Source: Nitrincola schmidtii (lineage in GTDB: Bacteria; Pseudomonadota; Gammaproteobacteria; Pseudomonadales; Balneatricaceae). From it: a stretch of DNA of 50,584 bases. The translations under genes and the position numbers were made by a program. Numbering within the stretch: position 1 is the stretch's first letter; every line of letters begins with the position of its first letter. This document shows positions 14,530 through 32,289 of the stretch, piece after piece. Location: assembly GCF_008973715.1 (NCBI RefSeq), contig NZ_WBOL01000018.1:1-50584 (forward strand), in the 5' to 3' direction. The notes beneath the pieces are model-generated. The model searched no databases. It was given only the letters and a program-made list of their open reading frames with translations, and was not told the DNA's origin.

Positions 14530-14697
14530 ATGCACCAACATCGAATCCTTATATTATTGGTTTTACTTTGCCTTACCTTAGCACCACCACTGATACATGC
14601 AGGTTTATTTACCGGCCCTGTTTGGTTGCCTTTTTTTCTCTGGGCAATGCTTATCTTCATTGCAGCGCTACTTAATCTGTCAGGAAAAAATTCATGA
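14530..14697 (+). CDS. cbrX: CbrX-like small membrane protein
   Basis: A 55-residue protein with two hydrophobic segments (about 6-24 and 29-50) around a GLFTGPVWLP turn. It starts one base after the gluQ stop, and its TGA overlaps the cbrA start (ATGA), a classic translational-coupling arrangement. In Pseudomonas a small membrane protein, CbrX, occupies the same place before cbrA; I assign this by position, size and topology rather than by detailed alignment. It is probably cotranslated with cbrA and may set CbrA levels or sit beside its transporter domain. Confidence 0.72.
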   Translation: MHQHRILILLVLLCLTLAPPLIHAGLFTGPVWLPFFLWAMLIFIAALLNLSGKNS

Positions 14698-17624
14698 CTC
14701 TTGATTTATCTGCGCTGTTACTCATCGGCATTGGCTACCTAATACTGCTTTTTGTAACGGCCTATTTAACTGAAAGAGGTGTATTACCCAACAAGGTTAT
14801 CCGTCACCCACTGACACATGTACTTTCGTTGGCTGTTTATGCAAGCGCTTGGACTTTTTACGGCGCGTTTAGTATTGCCTCGGATGCTGGTTTTGCGTTT
14901 TTAGCCTCTTATCTAGGTGCAACTGTCACATTTATGCTGGCACCGATTATTCTGATGCCACTACTTCGCATTGCCCGCAGCCATCAGCTTAGCTCCCTAG
15001 CTGACCTTTTTGCCTTTCGCTATCGCAGCGCACGAGTCGGTAGTTTTATCACCCTATTAGTCTTAGTCATTAGCATGCCGCTCATTGCGCTTCAAATTCA
15101 GGCATTCTCTGATAGTCTCAGTCATTTCGATTCACGGGTATCCGGACAACATGTAGCTTTAGTTTTCTGCTTAATCATGTCACTGTTTTCCATGCTATTC
15201 GGGGCAAGACAACTATCTATCCGAAGTCGGCATGATGGTCTAATGGTCGCTATTGCCTTGGAATCAATTGTGAAAATAGTGGCGCTTTTAGCGATGGCTG
15301 CGGTGATTTTGTTTGGTTTATTTAGCGGTCCGGTAGGATTACTCGAATGGCTAGAGCAGAATCCTGAGCAACTGCAAAGGTTGCAAACCCATCCTTCAGG
15401 TAATAACTGGCAAATTTTACTGCTGGCGTTTTTCGCTGCTGCATTCATTACGCCACACATGTTTCACTTACTGTTTAGTGAAAACGCCTCAGAAAGCAGC
15501 TTAAAACTGGCCAGCTGGTTTATGCCATTAATGCTTTTTCTAATGGCCATCTGTATTCCGCTTTTACTCTGGGGTTCAGTCATTTTGCAGGTGGATACAC
15601 CCAAAGACTTTTTATTAATTCGCCTGGGACAGGCACTAGAGCAAGATTGGTTCGTCATCGCTGCTTACTTAGGAGGTCTCTCAGCATCCAGCGGTGTTAT
15701 CATAGTTGCTAATGTTGCTCTGGCTTCAATGGTACAAAATCATTTACTGCTTCCTGTCATCAAACTGCCCGATACGGAACGATTTTATAGCTGGTTACTG
15801 TGGATGCGACGCAGCTTAATACTGCTAGTAATGGCTGGCAGTTATCTGGTTTACCTTTTCGTCGGTAATCGATTTCCTTTAGCGCAGCTGGGATTAATCA
15901 CTTTTATCGGTTTCTTACAATTCCTTCCCGGACTTTTAGCCACACTCTATTGGCAAAAAGCGAGTCGAATCGGTTTTCTGGCAGGATTATGCGCTGGCAT
16001 CACGATCTGGCTATTGGCAATTGTGTTACCTGCTCTGACTCACCCTACCAACCCCTCATCTTTGAACTTACTTGATCAATGGTATGGCTGGGCAATCGCC
16101 TCGATTCTTATTAATTCCATCCTAATCATGGTTATCTCTTGGTTATTTAAGCCTTCGGCTGAAGAAGAAGAAATGGCGGTTGCGTGTGTACTCAACGCCT
16201 TACCGAGGTCACAATCCAGCTTTACCTTTGAAAATGACACATTAGAAGATCTTCAACTTCGCCTAGGTGCTCGTCTTGGGACAACCTCAGCACAAAGAGA
16301 AATTGAACGCGCTCTAGAATCACTTAATCTACCGCCCACCAATAAACTTCGCCCACTCGACTTATTGCGTCTTCGTAACATTTTGGAAAACAATCTTTCG
16401 GGTATTTTAGGTCCCGCAGAAGCAACCGCACTACTCAGGCCTCAGAGCCTTTCTGGCAACAATGCTTTCAGAGGACGAGAAATACATCTTCTAGAAGAAC
16501 AGCTCGAAAGTTATAGTGAACGCCTATCAGGACTTGCCGCAGAACTCGATAAAATTCGTCGCTACCATCGCTCAACACTGCAGCATCTTCCCATTGGAGT
16601 TTGCACTCTAAACGAGCGCCAGCACATTTTGTTTTGGAATCAAGCAATGGTCGATTATACCGGCATAGCACCCGATGCAGTGCTCGGTCTAAAACCTGAA
16701 GAGCTCCCTTCACCTTGGTCAGATCTGTTAAGCAACTTTTGCCAACAGCAAGTCACTTATCAGCCAGCCACTATGCTGGATAATGGCAAACAGCAAACAT
16801 GGTTTAGCTTGCACAAAACAGATATCGATGAAGGCCTACAAGGCTGCGTTATACTGATTGAAGATGAAACCGAACATAAGCTATTAGCCAATCGATTGGC
16901 GCATAGTGAAAGACTCACTTCCATTGGTCGCTTTGCTGCAGGGGTAGCTCATGAGATTGGCAACCCCGTTACCGGAATCGCTTGCCTTGCACAAAACCTG
17001 AAACTGGAAACAGATCAGCCTGAGGTTCTTGAAACAGGTGAGGCTATTGTTGAACAAACACAACGAATCAGCCGTATTGTACAATCGCTAATTCGTTTTG
17101 CGCATACAGGTCAAACGGAAAATCTTGACCATTCTAAGTCCGTCTCTCTTAATAACTGTATTGAAGAGGCCGTAGACTTAATGCGATTTGACGAATCACG
17201 TCGAAAAGTAAAGATTCATATGGATATCGAACCAAAACTGTATTCTTCAGGCGACTATCAACAACTCCTGCAAATGCTAGTGAATCTTTTGAATAACGCC
17301 AGTGATGCATCGCCCGAGCAGTCAACCATCTGGATTCAAGCTTACTCAGTTGAAAACTGGGTTGAGATTGAGATCATCGATCAAGGAACAGGGATTAGCG
17401 CAGAACACCAAGGCCGCATCTTCGAACCTTTTTTTACCACAAAAGAGCCAGGCAAAGGCACAGGCTTAGGTCTGGCACTGGTATACAATATTATTACAGA
17501 ACATTGTGGTAATATTGAATTTATTAGTCCTGCCGACAAAAAACAGAACAAAGGCACTCAGGTAATTATTCAGCTTCCCGCCTGGACGGAACAGGATTCT
17601 CTGTCAGTTGCGGGGTTAGAGTAA
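14694..17624 (+). CDS. cbrA: CbrA-type sensor kinase with Na+/solute symporter domain
   Basis: A 976-residue hybrid of a sodium/solute symporter (SSSF) domain and a histidine kinase. About 13 membrane helices span residues 1-490, followed by a linker and a PAS-type domain (about 625-725). The dimerisation helix has the phospho-accepting His753 in VAHEIGNP. The catalytic ATPase has an N box (NLLNNASDAS), DQGTGIS and GKGTGLGL. In Pseudomonas, CbrA controls carbon/nitrogen balance and histidine and proline use through CbrB. The gene overlaps cbrX by four bases, and cbrB follows 11 bases later. All kinase motifs are intact. Confidence 0.93.
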   Translation: MTLDLSALLLIGIGYLILLFVTAYLTERGVLPNKVIRHPLTHVLSLAVYASAWTFYGAFSIASDAGFAFLASYLGATVTFMLAPIILMPLLRIARSHQLSSLADLFAFRYRSARVGSFITLLVLVISMPLIALQIQAFSDSLSHFDSRVSGQHVALVFCLIMSLFSMLFGARQLSIRSRHDGLMVAIALESIVKIVALLAMAAVILFGLFSGPVGLLEWLEQNPEQLQRLQTHPSGNNWQILLLAFFAAAFITPHMFHLLFSENASESSLKLASWFMPLMLFLMAICIPLLLWGSVILQVDTPKDFLLIRLGQALEQDWFVIAAYLGGLSASSGVIIVANVALASMVQNHLLLPVIKLPDTERFYSWLLWMRRSLILLVMAGSYLVYLFVGNRFPLAQLGLITFIGFLQFLPGLLATLYWQKASRIGFLAGLCAGITIWLLAIVLPALTHPTNPSSLNLLDQWYGWAIASILINSILIMVISWLFKPSAEEEEMAVACVLNALPRSQSSFTFENDTLEDLQLRLGARLGTTSAQREIERALESLNLPPTNKLRPLDLLRLRNILENNLSGILGPAEATALLRPQSLSGNNAFRGREIHLLEEQLESYSERLSGLAAELDKIRRYHRSTLQHLPIGVCTLNERQHILFWNQAMVDYTGIAPDAVLGLKPEELPSPWSDLLSNFCQQQVTYQPATMLDNGKQQTWFSLHKTDIDEGLQGCVILIEDETEHKLLANRLAHSERLTSIGRFAAGVAHEIGNPVTGIACLAQNLKLETDQPEVLETGEAIVEQTQRISRIVQSLIRFAHTGQTENLDHSKSVSLNNCIEEAVDLMRFDESRRKVKIHMDIEPKLYSSGDYQQLLQMLVNLLNNASDASPEQSTIWIQAYSVENWVEIEIIDQGTGISAEHQGRIFEPFFTTKEPGKGTGLGLALVYNIITEHCGNIEFISPADKKQNKGTQVIIQLPAWTEQDSLSVAGLE

Positions 17625-17635
17625 CAGGTCCCAAC

Positions 17636-19015
17636 ATGAGCCGAATTCTGATCGTAGAGGATGAAAAAGTCATCCGAACAGCCTTAAAACGTCTTTTAAT
17701 CAAGCATGATTACGAGATAGATGATGTCGATAGTGTCACAGCAGCTATCCCTCATTTGCAACAAAACCAGTATCAACTGGTGATTAGTGATCTTCGCCTA
17801 CCCGGAGGTGAAGGAACAGAGCTGATCCCACATGCCCGCAGTACACCCGTGCTCATCATGACGAGCTATGCCAGCATGCGCTCTGCGATCGATGCCATTA
17901 AGCTTGGTGCAGCAGACTATATTGCCAAGCCATTTGACCATGATGAAATGCTTAACGTCATCAGTAAACTAATTCAACCAACCATTTCCGAACCGACGAC
18001 TAGCAAGGCTGAAGAAGTCTCCGGAACGACACTTCTAAACGGTTCATGCCCCGCCATCCAAGAATTAAATAAACGCATTCATAAAGTAGCTCAAACGGAA
18101 GCAACCGTATTGATTCTTGGTGAATCTGGAACAGGTAAAGAACTCGTAGCGAAAAGTATTCACCAGCTCAGTCATCGCTCACATGCACCCATGATCTGTG
18201 TGAACTGTGCAGCTATACCTGAAACACTGATTGAATCGGAACTCTTTGGCCATGAAAAAGGGGCATTTACTGGCGCTGATACGACCCGTAACGGTCTTAT
18301 TGAAGCGGCTGATGGGGGAACCTTATTTCTAGACGAAATAGGTGAGTTACCCCTTGAAGCCCAAGCACGCTTACTTCGATTTTTACAAGAAGGTGAGATT
18401 CGCAAAGTGGGGTCGGTATACTCCAAACAAGTCAATGTACGGCTGATTGCAGCAACCCACCGAGATCTTAAAACCCTAGCTCAACAAGGCAAGTTTCGTG
18501 AAGACTTATATTACCGACTCTATGTGATGGAATTGCGCACGCCTTCTTTACGTGAACGGGGCTGTGATATTATTGAGTTAGCAGAGGTGTTTTTATCTGA
18601 ACAGTGCCAGAAGCACCATGTTGACATCACCTTTAGTGATGCAGCTTATCAAACCATGCGCCAACATCACTGGCCGGGTAACGTTCGAGAACTTCAAAAC
18701 GCCATTGAACGCGCTGTCATTCTTGCTGATACAGAGCAAATCACACCAGAGCTGTTAGGCTTGGACTTATCGGTAAAACCACCAATAGCAAATGCCTCTG
18801 CGACTGCGACTGCGACTGCGAGCGCCATTGAAGAGCCTATAAAATCTGAACACAGTTTAGATGATTACTTCGTGAAATTTGTATTAGAGAACCAACACAA
18901 AATGAACGAAACCGATCTAGCGAAAAGCTTAGGTGTCAGTCGAAAATGCTTGTGGGAAAAACGTCAAAAATTAGGCATCCCCAGGAAAAGCAAAAGTGTT
19001 ACCCTTGATCAGTAA
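17636..19015 (+). CDS. cbrB: CbrB, NtrC-family sigma-54 response regulator
   Basis: A 459-residue response regulator. The receiver domain has phospho-accepting Asp52. The AAA+ domain has Walker A GESGTGKE at 162-169 and the sigma-54-contacting GAFTGA at 209-214. A Fis-type helix-turn-helix lies at the C-terminus (about 415-450, ETDLAKSLGVSRKCLW). A low-complexity Ala/Thr linker encoded by repeated TGCGAC units (about 18799-18816) joins the last two domains. It is the partner of CbrA. The gene end carries the first of the GTTAC/GTAAC half-sites that precede the sigma-54 promoter for the downstream small RNA. Confidence 0.94.
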   Translation: MSRILIVEDEKVIRTALKRLLIKHDYEIDDVDSVTAAIPHLQQNQYQLVISDLRLPGGEGTELIPHARSTPVLIMTSYASMRSAIDAIKLGAADYIAKPFDHDEMLNVISKLIQPTISEPTTSKAEEVSGTTLLNGSCPAIQELNKRIHKVAQTEATVLILGESGTGKELVAKSIHQLSHRSHAPMICVNCAAIPETLIESELFGHEKGAFTGADTTRNGLIEAADGGTLFLDEIGELPLEAQARLLRFLQEGEIRKVGSVYSKQVNVRLIAATHRDLKTLAQQGKFREDLYYRLYVMELRTPSLRERGCDIIELAEVFLSEQCQKHHVDITFSDAAYQTMRQHHWPGNVRELQNAIERAVILADTEQITPELLGLDLSVKPPIANASATATATASAIEEPIKSEHSLDDYFVKFVLENQHKMNETDLAKSLGVSRKCLWEKRQKLGIPRKSKSVTLDQ

Positions 19016-19086
19016 CAAAAAATCCACAGAGAAAAAGTGTTACTTATCTACACAACAAGGTAACACTTAGTGGGCACATAGGTAAC
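18998..19086 (+). promoter_or_regulatory. candidate CbrB upstream activating sites
   Basis: Five half-sites lie 75-165 bases upstream of a sigma-54 promoter: GTTAC at 18998-19002, GTAAC at 19012-19016, GTTAC at 19039-19043, GTAAC at 19060-19064 and GTAAC at 19082-19086. The central pair extends to a 9-base perfect inverted repeat (AAGTGTTAC / GTAACACTT). CbrB targets in Pseudomonas crcZ promoters carry inverted half-sites of this type. The assignment is inference from that resemblance and from the position. Confidence 0.7.
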
Positions 19087-19160
19087 AAACATAATGTTCA
19101 ATGGCACGGATACAAAGCATCCAAAGCATGAATCCATTTAAAAACAATCACTTAAAAAGT

Positions 19161-19176
19161 TGGCACGGGATATGCT
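19161..19176 (+). promoter_or_regulatory. sigma-54 promoter (-24/-12) of CrcZ-like RNA
   Basis: TGGCACGGGATATGCT matches the sigma-54 consensus TGGCACG-N4-TTGCW except for one T to A change. The invariant GG (19162-19163) and GC (19174-19175) have the required spacing. Transcription would start near 19187. The site directly follows the half-sites expected for CbrB and precedes the CA-motif RNA. Confidence 0.85.
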
Positions 19177-19186
19177 CTATTATGAG

Positions 19187-19357
19187 CAAGAAAAATAAAA
19201 ATAATTTCATAACGACACCAAAAAAAATAACAACGTCGTGAGAAAACCTAACAAAGTGCCTTGAATAAAAATAACAACAAGGCTTCGCTGATAGCGGAGT
19301 GACAACAACACTCAGGACAGTGCTCAAACAACAACAAGCTTTGTTGCACTCCGTTTT
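19187..19357 (+). ncRNA. crcZ: CrcZ-like Hfq/Crc-sequestering small RNA
   Basis: The transcript predicted from the sigma-54 start to the T-run at 19354-19357 is about 170 bases, with no credible reading frame. It contains repeated AAnAAnAA motifs, the RNA signature bound by Hfq with Crc in Pseudomonas: AATAACAAC at 19226-19234, AATAACAACAA at 19270-19280, CAACAAC at 19303-19309 and AACAACAACAA at 19327-19337. Its place between cbrB and pcnB is that of crcZ in Pseudomonas. It is shorter than the roughly 400-base Pseudomonas CrcZ. Crc and Hfq are not in this window, so the sequestering role is inferred. Confidence 0.75.
19295..19357 (+). terminator. probable 3' stem of CrcZ-like RNA
   Basis: CGGAGTG (19295-19301) pairs with CACTCCG (19347-19353), and CAAC (19303-19306) pairs with GTTG (19343-19346), with one bulged A, followed by TTTT. 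The loop would display the last AACAACAACAA motif. A smaller alternative hairpin, CAACAA-GCT-TTGTTG (19332-19346), could form inside it. Confidence 0.55.
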
Positions 19358-19427
19358 CAGCCCCCACTCACTTTTATCTTCAAAATACCCTATCTAGCCA
19401 ATTTCTTTTCATCTAACCACTTCTCTT

Positions 19428-19455
19428 TTGTTTTAAGCAATTGTGCTATTAATAT
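19428..19455 (+). promoter_or_regulatory. candidate sigma-70 promoter of pcnB
   Basis: TTGTTT (19428-19433), a 16-base spacer and TAATAT (19450-19455) lie about 80 bases before the pcnB start and after the end of the CrcZ-like RNA. This is a plausible separate promoter for pcnB-folK-panBC. The remaining sequence from 19358 to 19535 holds no gene I can see. Confidence 0.4.
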
Positions 19456-19535
19456 GGAAACTAACACTCATTGCCACTTAACTGGTATCATTCACACAAT
19501 TTTTTGATGCTACCATTTAGGAAGAAAAACACTCG

Positions 19536-21011
19536 ATGCAAGAGTTACTTATCATACTGCTGCTAATTGTTTGTGCTGTACTTATTTACAAAATAAGAGT
19601 CGGTCGACACAGCGCAACGGCTACTAGCGTGACATCTAGCACAGAGAAGCTAACCAACACTGCCACTGCGCCAGAATCACTGACTGCAGAATATCTTCCA
19701 TTAGGTCAGAAGCGCATCATTCCCGAAAGTGAACACCAGATTCCTCGCCAACGCCTTGATGACAACGCTATGAAAGTCGTCTATCGCTTGCATGATGCGG
19801 GGTATGACAGTTTTTTAGTAGGCGGATGCATACGTGATTTATTATTGGGCGAAAAACCTAAAGACTTTGATGTAGCCACTTCCGCCCACCCAGAAGAAGC
19901 GGTCGAACTTTTTCATCGTGGCCGACTCATTGGAAGACGCTTTAAATTATTACATGTGCGATTTGGTCGAGAACTGATCGAAGTCGCCACCTTCCGAGCT
20001 GGTCATGACAGCGAGGATAATGATGATGGTGAACAAGGTCGACAAGCCGCTAGCGGACTTATATTACGGGACAACGTTTACGGAACCATTGAAGAGGATG
20101 CGCTTCGTCGCGACTTCACCGTCAATGCACTTTACTACTGCGCAAAAGATTACAGCATTTACGATTTTGCCAACGGCTATCCTGATCTGCAGAAAAAAAT
20201 TATTCGCATGATAGGGGACCCTGAACAGCGATTCAGAGAAGACCCTGTTCGCATGCTGCGTGCGGCTCGCTTTGCTGCCAAGTTGGGATTTGAGATAGAC
20301 GCTGAAACAGCTAAACCTATTCACCAGCTCTCTTCACTGCTCGCTCGTATCGCACCTGCTCGCCTGTTTGATGAGTCACTCAAATTACTGCAAAGTGGTT
20401 ATGGAGCTGCAGCCTTTCGTCAAATGCAGCGTTTCGATCTGTTTCGTTACCTTTTCCCCTTAACACACGCTCAATTAGACGACTCAGAATGGCCAACCGC
20501 CACCCTTGTGCAGCACGTATTAAAAAATACTGATCGTCGTCTAGAGCAAGGCAAGAGTGTAACGCCAGCCTTTATGTTTGCAGCACTGCTGTGGTATCCC
20601 TTGTATGAGCGTTACCTTCAATTACTTGATGATGAAGACATGCCGCCACTGCAAGCATTACATGAAGCTGCAAACCAAGTTTTATCCGCACAGGTAAAAG
20701 CCACAGCCATTCCAAGACGCTTCTCTGCGCCTATGCGTGAGATATGGGAGCTACAGTTACGCCTTCCGCGCTATCATGGTAAACGTGCTGAACAACTCAT
20801 TACCCACCCTCGCTTTAGAGCAGCCTATGACCTGATTCTACTCAGAGAATCCTCTGGGGAAGACTTAAAAGGCTTAGGCAAATGGTGGACGGACTACCAG
20901 CAGGCCAACGATAGCCAACGCCACGGGATGCAGCGCAACTCAGCCACGGATGAACAACCGCAAAAACGTCGACGCAAACGTCGCAAACCTATTACGAGAA
21001 GCCATGACTGA
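19536..21011 (+). CDS. pcnB: poly(A) polymerase I with N-terminal membrane segment
   Basis: Adds 3' poly(A) tails that promote RNA decay, working with PNPase, which is also encoded here. In the 491-residue protein the nucleotidyltransferase core begins near residue 60 (IIPESEH) with GGCIRD at 96-101 and the catalytic DFD at 110-112, followed by RRDFTVNALYY. The C-terminus is highly basic (QKRRRKRRKP), as in bacterial PAP. Unusually, residues 2-18 are a continuous hydrophobic run (LLIILLLIVCAVLIY), followed by a basic residue and a Ser/Thr-rich linker, as in a single-pass membrane anchor. folK overlaps the 3' end. Confidence 0.93.
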   Translation: MQELLIILLLIVCAVLIYKIRVGRHSATATSVTSSTEKLTNTATAPESLTAEYLPLGQKRIIPESEHQIPRQRLDDNAMKVVYRLHDAGYDSFLVGGCIRDLLLGEKPKDFDVATSAHPEEAVELFHRGRLIGRRFKLLHVRFGRELIEVATFRAGHDSEDNDDGEQGRQAASGLILRDNVYGTIEEDALRRDFTVNALYYCAKDYSIYDFANGYPDLQKKIIRMIGDPEQRFREDPVRMLRAARFAAKLGFEIDAETAKPIHQLSSLLARIAPARLFDESLKLLQSGYGAAAFRQMQRFDLFRYLFPLTHAQLDDSEWPTATLVQHVLKNTDRRLEQGKSVTPAFMFAALLWYPLYERYLQLLDDEDMPPLQALHEAANQVLSAQVKATAIPRRFSAPMREIWELQLRLPRYHGKRAEQLITHPRFRAAYDLILLRESSGEDLKGLGKWWTDYQQANDSQRHGMQRNSATDEQPQKRRRKRRKPITRSHD

Positions 21012-31893: not shown

Positions 31894-32163
31894 TTAGCGG
31901 CGCAGACCTAAACGAGCGATCAATTCGAGGTAACGGTCAGCATCTTTACGCTTCAAGTAGTCTAGAAGCTTACGACGCTGGTTAACCATACGAATCAAAC
32001 CACGACGTGAATGGTGGTCTTGCTTGTTAGCTTTGAAGTGATCCTGTAAACCAACAATGTTTGCAGTTAACAGTGCAACTTGTACTTCTGGTGAACCAGT
32101 ATCGCCAGGACCACGACCAAATTCAGCAACGATTTCGGCCTTCTTCTCAGTAGCTAATGCCAT
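31894..32163 (-). CDS. rpsO: 30S ribosomal protein S15
   Basis: Primary 16S-binding protein of the small subunit. The product is 89 residues starting [15 protein letters not shown], with the conserved [20 protein letters not shown] and [10 protein letters not shown] segments. I chose this ATG because AAAGGAG lies six bases upstream and the length is that of the family; the open frame continues upstream without meaning. A small CAACC/GGTTG hairpin (32190-32203) sits about 25 bases before the start and might take part in S15 autoregulation, which is known in several bacteria. Confidence 0.97.
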
Positions 32164-32289
32164 TTCTTTCTCCTTTAACAATATGCTCACAACCCTTAGG
32201 TTGCTGGTTAGTAGACGCGCAGGGCCGGGCATATTTCCAGTACTGCGTCAGTAAACACAGATCTTTTGACCTATGTTTGTTTTAAAAAT

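Follow-up and report, generated by a model that had tools for sequence, protein, structure and literature searches.

In a 50,584-nucleotide stretch of the Nitrincola schmidtii genome (assembly GCF_008973715.1, contig NZ_WBOL01000018.1, positions 1 to 50,584 of the forward strand; hereafter the window) we found a very probable gene for a small regulatory RNA at positions 19187-19361, within the gap of 520 bases between the stop of cbrB (19015) and the ATG of pcnB (19536). We read it as a CrcZ-type RNA that titrates Hfq/Crc, compact and beyond the reach of Rfam's CrcZ model, with a probability of about 0.85, because of the anatomy of its promoter, its conservation, the covariation in the RNA and the presence of the protein partners. 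A first-pass annotation, made from the DNA letters alone, had counted the same gap, had seen in it the order and content of crcZ and had suspected that the host was not a Pseudomonas; all of this held, the host being a Nitrincola with a genome of 3.14 Mb.

CrcZ of Pseudomonas aeruginosa is described as an RNA of 407 nucleotides (nt) with six A-rich stretches, which binds the distal face of Hfq, where six pockets accommodate A-R-N triplets, and titrates Hfq (PMC4063720). The CbrAB system and its RNA are presented in a 2022 review as having been described in no genera but Pseudomonas and Azotobacter, and as unique to Pseudomonadaceae (PMC8871633), and in another source as exclusive of the Pseudomonads (PMC6296734). 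Transcripts of cbrAB were reported from deep-sea metatranscriptomes, in passages that name no RNA (PMC5073097). In the open-licence PMC literature we found nothing on CrcZ in Marinobacter or in Oceanospirillales; CrcZ and Halomonas occur together in two papers (PMC9049629 and PMC13086519), and CrcZ and Gammaproteobacteria in a third (PMC8545117), which may bear on the matter.

Promoter and CbrB sub-sites

Upstream of the RNA the following elements were located:

18997-19017, + strand: two extra CbrB-type sub-sites, TGTTAC (18997-19002) and GTAACA (19012-19017), with sub-site sequences as in PMC6296734
19038-19087, + strand: CbrB enhancer in the published layout, F1 TGTTAC (19038-19043), R1 GTAACA (19060-19065) and R2 GTAACA (19082-19087)
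19142-19154, + strand: IHF-like site with one mismatch to the IHF consensus WATCAANNNNTTR
19160-19176, + strand: near-consensus sigma-54 promoter TTGGCACGGGATATGCT, with GG-N10-GC exact

The five GTTAC/GTAAC half-sites and the near-consensus sigma-54 promoter had both been named in the first-pass annotation and were found as described. The start that it gave, 18998, lies among the half-sites, and is corrected here to 18997 because the first TGTTAC begins at that base, inside the 3' end of cbrB; the next sub-site, GTAACA at 19012, overlaps the cbrB stop codon. The distances from F1 to R1 and from R1 to R2 are 22 bp each. For crcZ and crcY of P. putida, one F site (TGTTAC) and two R sites (GTAACA), 20-25 bp apart, have been published (PMC6296734), and the window thus carries, upstream of its RNA, the spacing of the CrcZ/CrcY/CrcX class together with the sigma-54 promoter of that class.

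The arrangement was compared with 80 named loci. These are the best 80 of at least 577 confirmed loci, ranked by similarity to the tail of the window's CbrB; they are not an even sample, and include three Nitrincola-group loci and near-identical pairs. A cassette was defined as a sigma-54 site followed by at least two AAYAAYAA motifs within 420 nt, and expectations were taken from dinucleotide shuffles. Such a cassette followed cbrB in 63 of the 80 loci, against 0.01 expected and none on the reverse strand; Nitrincola, Marinobacterium, Neptunomonas, Thalassolituus, Microbulbifer, Zhongshania and Halomonas are among the genera that passed. The sigma-54 site itself was present in 69 loci (1.15 expected). 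Among these 69, GTAACA lay upstream in 68 (8.3 expected), TGTTAC in 62 (4.5 expected) and a correctly spaced F-R pair in 52 (0.1 expected), while an IHF-like site fell within the last 60 nt before the sigma-54 site in 27 (7.6 expected). An R site most often lay 78 or 79 nt before the sigma-54 17-mer (46 sites in the 69 loci), and the window's R2 site sits 78 nt before it. Both the sigma-54 box and the A-rich motifs are therefore kept in close and distant relatives, a point on which the first-pass annotation had proposed to be checked.

Two loci whose RNA scores above the Rfam CrcZ cut-off have the same promoter anatomy: TGTTAC, GTAACA and GTAACG at 20 and 22 bp in one (L158) and at 22 and 22 bp in the other (L165), each followed by a like sigma-54 box. 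In both, the Rfam small RNA (sRNA) family P36 (L158:1345-1405; L165:1344-1406) overlays the stretch of CbrB sub-sites between cbrB and crcZ. The P36 match of L158 resembles a terminator hairpin with the R2 site in its loop, and P36 may therefore be no sRNA in its own right.

Extent, fold and covariation of the RNA

The predicted RNA and its parts are as follows:

19187-19361, + strand: predicted CrcZ-type RNA of ~175 nt; start predicted by its distance from the promoter, 3' end approximate and set at the last conserved helix
19188-19205, + strand: 6-triplet A-R-N tract with which the RNA begins at its 5' end
19212-19239, + strand: hairpin 1, supported by covariation, stem 19212-19216/19235-19239, with a 5-triplet A-R-N tract (19220-19234) in the loop
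19258-19283, + strand: hairpin 2, supported by covariation, stem 19258-19263/19278-19283, its loop formed by most of a 6-triplet tract (19264-19281)
19287-19361, + strand: 3' domain, supported by covariation, with outer helix GCTGA/TCAGC (19287-19291/19357-19361) and inner helix CGGAGTG/CACTCCG (19295-19301/19347-19353)

The 3' domain encloses ACAACAACA (at 19302) and a 4-triplet A-R-N tract (19327-19338). The RNA therefore offers four tracts, of 6, 5, 6 and 4 triplets, the first at its 5' end, the next two in the hairpin loops and the last within the 3' domain. By its sequence it has the several A-R-N stretches, suited to the distal face of Hfq, that mark the CrcZ/CrcY/CrcX class. AAYAAYAA motifs start at 19226, 19270, 19273, 19327 and 19330. 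This agrees well with the earlier prediction of an A-rich RNA of about 170 bases, less than half the usual length of CrcZ. The stretch 19187-19370 folds with -43.2 kcal/mol (z -5.3), a value equalled in 0 of 200 shuffles.

Compensatory changes were examined in an alignment (A2) of the eleven Nitrincola RNAs, over 23 pairs in four helices. Of all cells, 94.8% were paired. Both sides had changed at 12 of the 23 pairs, compared with a shuffled mean of 5.8 (0 of 500 shuffles as high), and the covariation score was 0.363, compared with 0.162 in shuffles (0 of 500) and 0.024-0.116 in slid controls. By helix, changes on both sides affected 4 of 5 pairs in hairpin 1, 3 of 6 in hairpin 2 and 5 of 7 in the inner helix of the 3' domain, whose outer helix is invariant in these eleven. 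In a wider alignment of 47 matches (46 distinct), which leans towards the structure because it was fitted to it, 22 of the 23 pairs change and the score is 0.450 (shuffled 0.190); among the 46 distinct sequences this covers 5 of 6 pairs in hairpin 2 and 5 of 5 in the outer helix.

These changes also bear on whether the stretch might be a small coding gene. A 46-codon open reading frame (ORF; 19101-19241) overlaps the start of the RNA and a 32-codon ORF (19299-19397) its end, but the former has its first codon ahead of the sigma-54 site, gaps in the alignment do not come in threes, and the compensatory changes track the pairing of the RNA. We regard a coding function as having hardly any likelihood.

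The A-R-N loops are among the best conserved parts of the eleven Nitrincola RNAs, while the linker that joins hairpin 1 to hairpin 2 is variable. An sRNA that silences or activates particular mRNAs by base pairing, with Hfq as its chaperone, rather than acting as a sponge, could also carry Hfq-binding A-rich tracts, which occur in targets and in some sRNAs too. The conservation of the loops over the linker and the tandem multiplication of cassettes in relatives, as a dosage effect would predict, speak against such a function, although the 3' domain is partly well conserved as well; we consider it highly improbable.

Conservation across the order

We built two covariance models of the Nitrincola-type RNA, R1 and R2 (distinct from the promoter sites of the same names), and many family members are in the training set of model R2. 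Outside that set, it matched one copy in genome G013 (E 1.8e-11) and three copies in genome G018 (5e-15 to 1e-13). In the window's genome it found one copy at E<=0.05, the RNA at 19187-19361. Matches were obtained in 28 of 38 genomes at E<=0.05 and, at E<=0.01, in 54 of the 390 genomes searched across the order.

A clear CbrB is encoded in 35 of the 38 genomes, the window's own included; in the other three (G011, G013 and G019) the only matches are NtrC-type paralogues. After cbrB, a sigma-54 site scoring >=23 was present in 26 of 30 loci, and one of the other four (L031) ends at a contig end. Across the order, 307 of 390 genomes have CbrB at E<=1e-115, a threshold set between the true CbrB and the paralogues of the 38 genomes, with some families lying near it.

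At least two cassettes were counted in 12 of the 80 named loci. Two or three tandem cassettes between cbrB and pcnB were seen in L018, L019, L076, L077, L087, L090 and L095, and likewise in L102, L108, L109, L136, L141, L142 and L149; the locus of Marinobacterium jannaschii (L109) gave three matches to model R1. Very short versions were also seen, in Zhongshania (L138:3800-3935), the BD1-7 clade (L142) and Dasania (L108), each consisting of a sigma-54 site, ~100 nt of AAY repeats weakly matched by model R1 and a terminator-like stem.

Termination and copies away from cbrB

The first-pass annotation had the RNA end in a stem plus T-run, and this was not borne out. CACTCCG is followed by only four Ts, GCTGA/TCAGC closes beyond it, and a terminator scan of 18900-19700 was empty, so that the 3' end of the RNA is only approximate. 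In the following 50 nt (19362-19411) C outnumbers G by 16, and such a C-rich, G-poor composition would suit Rho-dependent termination.

On the same strand pcnB closely follows the RNA, and no intrinsic terminator was found between them, as would be expected if the RNA were the long 5' leader of a sigma-54-driven pcnB mRNA, structured, bound by Hfq and controlling poly(A) polymerase. Several findings make this improbable. Copies occur away from pcnB: three on other contigs in G018, several in G030 and one in G022, all away from the cbrB locus, and no pcnB match was obtained in the 2.0-2.5 kb stretches fetched around them. Loci with two or more cassettes, as counted above, are equally at odds with a leader, as are the short versions of other genera that end in terminator-like stems (no more than 450 nt from the predicted start in 14 of 82 cassettes, the shortest at ~80-150 nt). 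In addition, pcnB has a -10-like box of its own:

19483-19491, + strand: TGGTATCAT, extended -10-like box, identical in 8 of the 11 Nitrincola sequences, possibly pcnB's own promoter

In G018, the gap between cbrB and pcnB (<=301 bases, counted up to where the pcnB alignment begins) holds no cassette. Altogether 13 matches away from the cbrB locus, one of which (L223) adjoins pcnB, were read with their upstream DNA. GTAACA was located 95-130 nt upstream in 11 of the 13; six have a sigma-54 box by pattern and five more a TGGC-bearing box that the pattern misses. The matches in G011 and G015 have neither GTAACA nor a sigma-54 box upstream. A weak match of model R2 in G011 (L211, E 0.015) was considered as a homologue and dropped because it lies among other genes and no sigma-54 box or CbrB site was found upstream.

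Three relatives lack parts of the system. G013 (2.2 Mb, 99% complete) is without CbrB (best match 302 bits, compared with >=448 for true CbrB) and without CbrA (best 232 bits, compared with 570-645 in G018 and G016), and keeps RpoN, Crc (70% identity) and the RNA, which lies between gluQRS and pcnB (L199:1501-1680). At the position of the sigma-54 site it has TTGAAT-17-TATAGT, with 9 of 12 consensus matches, ending 6 bases before the first A-rich tract; from this consensus match, the promoter appears sigma-70-like. G011 is without CbrAB and keeps Crc. G019 (96% complete) yielded no true CbrB, and neither CbrA nor Crc nor the RNA was matched there at the thresholds applied.

Protein partners and neighbouring genes

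The gene order of the locus is gluQRS-cbrA-cbrB-RNA-pcnB-folK, then panB-panC, the last two named by reading ORFs. Its main protein genes are:

14694-17624, + strand: cbrA, histidine kinase with an SLC5-STAC transporter-like N-terminal part (PDB match 10ed)
17636-19015, + strand: cbrB, sigma-54-activating response regulator (domains Response_reg and Sigma54_activat)
19536-21011, + strand: pcnB, poly(A) polymerase (TIGR01942, 535.7 bits)

Residues 1-581 of CbrA have 10ed as best PDB match (E 1.2e-143), a structure described as the SLC5-STAC part of Pseudomonas CbrXA (PMC13022988). The first-pass annotation had proposed a check for crc and rpoN, and the window's genome encodes both, as well as hfq. 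Crc (L040) has Crc itself as best PDB match (4jg3/6o1k, E 4.9e-80), lies in the order pyrE-crc-rph (L040:295-2733; pyrE and rph named by reading ORFs) and is distinct from exonuclease III of the same genome (L039, best match 1ako). A residue comparison found its catalytic E34 and D151 both replaced, and the protein is predicted to be non-catalytic. Hfq aligns closely over 1-77 with PDB 1u1s, which we take to be P. aeruginosa Hfq, and Y25, the Y of 'SIYLV' in 1u1s, is replaced by F. The host of the RNA thus has the partners of the CrcZ/CrcY/CrcX class, CbrA, Hfq and a Crc that is non-catalytic as judged by its residues only.

Crc was matched in 36 of the 38 genomes, the exceptions being G019 and G026 (75% complete). 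Among 30 Crc-like loci examined, E34 and D151 are both replaced in 27 and D151 in one partial sequence, and pyrE lies within the locus in 27. The remaining two (L069 and L070) have intact catalytic residues, are without pyrE and are probably the nuclease. The Crc-like genes of the relatives are hence of two sorts, non-catalytic ones adjoining pyrE and apparently catalytic ones elsewhere. Apart from the cbrB-pcnB locus, the window holds an ordinary S15 leader (RF00114) at 32107-32227 on the - strand, barely above its cut-off.

Relation to CrcZ and other known RNAs

The Nitrincola RNA resembles Pseudomonas CrcZ (RF01675) in its place between cbrB and pcnB, which is specific to CrcZ, in the F1-R1-R2 sub-sites and the sigma-54 promoter, and in an A-rich tract from the 5' end on followed by A-rich tracts in hairpin loops. 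It differs in its host, in being missed by the Rfam model, in having no clear intrinsic terminator and in its own covarying fold, in which two A-rich hairpins are followed by a 3' domain with long-range pairing.

Several observations weigh against a CrcZ-type RNA. The RNA has ~175 nt where CrcZ has ~400, and the terminator scan was negative. No RF01675 match was obtained in the window; a covariance search with that model, which had been proposed at the outset, gave nothing over its gathering cut-off (95 bits) in the whole genome. Model R2 matches 10 of 16 CrcZ loci of family f21 only at E 0.007 to 0.6, and model R1 produced a chance match to the reverse strand of the window at E 0.0037; beside that value the E values of R2 on f21 are at noise level, and direct homology to CrcZ is therefore unproven at the level of the RNA. 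In the Nitrincola alignment, further pair types were no better than in shuffles (18 against 17.6, 276 of 500), and helix 1 is the weakest, only 76.1% of its cells being paired in the wider alignment. Finally, 17 of the 80 named loci failed the cassette criterion. Six of them (L093, L098, L100, L120, L128 and L143), three being Alcanivorax loci, have at least five AAYAAYAA and no sigma-54 match at the threshold, four (L086, L126, L137 and L153) have neither a sigma-54 match nor the AAYAAYAA set, and the remaining seven miss the full criterion in other ways.

On the RNA stretch no Rfam family reached its gathering score, and the sole match at E<=5 was unrelated (E 4). Elsewhere in the window's genome RF01675 gave 8 weak matches (best E 0.008), and at such laxity it also matched 9 of 14 control genomes. 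Over its cut-off it is found in 19 of the 390 genomes, 16 of family f21, presumably the Pseudomonadaceae, and 3 of family f2, and at E<=1e-3 in 71. The CrcZ of f21 lies between cbrB and pcnB in 15 of 16 loci; the stretch of the other one (L154) holds neither gene.

The lack of an Rfam match and the near-noise scores of R1 and R2 on the f21 loci would be expected had a CrcZ-like A-rich RNA evolved independently, with the same logic and place and another descent than Pseudomonas CrcZ, and A-rich loops could arise repeatedly. However, the place, the type of enhancer and the type of promoter are common to the window and the f21 loci, and the 5' parts follow a common plan, an A-rich tract and then A-rich loops. 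Loci of intermediate families (L170-L183) also lie between cbrB and pcnB in 13 of 14 cases, the other one (L170) being near a contig end with pcnB only. These families match both models, for example at two loci of family f35 (L174 and L176; RF01675 at 4e-17 to 2e-16, R2 at 2e-5 to 4e-5). An independent origin thus seems unlikely, if the least so of the alternatives. Position and promoter, and not the RNA models, suggest that the Nitrincola RNA and Pseudomonas CrcZ come from one ancestral RNA. The earlier proposal of a compact or divergent member of the class that searches miss fits in that Rfam does miss it, while its descent from CrcZ is the part that the RNA models leave unproven.

CrcY and CrcX of Pseudomonas and CrcY of Azotobacter are extra sponges beside CrcZ (PMC8871633), and some relatives of the window's genome likewise have copies in tandem or elsewhere in the genome. 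Unlike carriers of CrcY or CrcX, the window's genome has a single copy at E<=0.05. RsmY and RsmZ are protein-sequestering RNAs driven by a two-component system as well; they differ in using GGA motifs, for RsmA/CsrA.

Proposed mechanism and meaning

By analogy with CrcZ, we infer that the Nitrincola RNA is activated by CbrB, binds Hfq/Crc and relieves catabolite repression. When good carbon sources are exhausted, CbrA would phosphorylate CbrB. CbrB bound to F1-R1-R2, probably with IHF bending the DNA, would then turn on the sigma-54 promoter at 19160-19176. The four A-R-N tracts, each of 4 to 6 triplets, would be accommodated by Hfq on its distal face. With Crc joining the complex, Hfq/Crc would be drawn off catabolic mRNAs and repression would end.

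On balance, we favour the view that CbrAB, sigma-54, a sponge RNA and Hfq-Crc form an old switch of the whole order Pseudomonadales, taken in the wide sense, rather than a speciality of Pseudomonas. Its RNA would have diversified into forms of ~100 to 400 nt, present singly, in tandem or at other sites in the genome, that mostly score below the Rfam cut-off. The RNA of one or more reduced genomes would have outlived CbrAB on a sigma-70-type promoter, an inducible sponge having become a standing one. These results suggest that a carbon-control switch hitherto reported from just two genera, Pseudomonas and Azotobacter, extends across the order. If this is true, control by Hfq/Crc sponge RNAs reaches many marine and soda-lake genera beyond those two. 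A new covariance model would make such RNA genes visible to annotation pipelines. As a small sponge defined by its structure, the Nitrincola RNA suits the question of how many Hfq sites suffice, and G013, with the RNA and without CbrAB, would allow a test of whether selection keeps the presence of the RNA rather than its induction.

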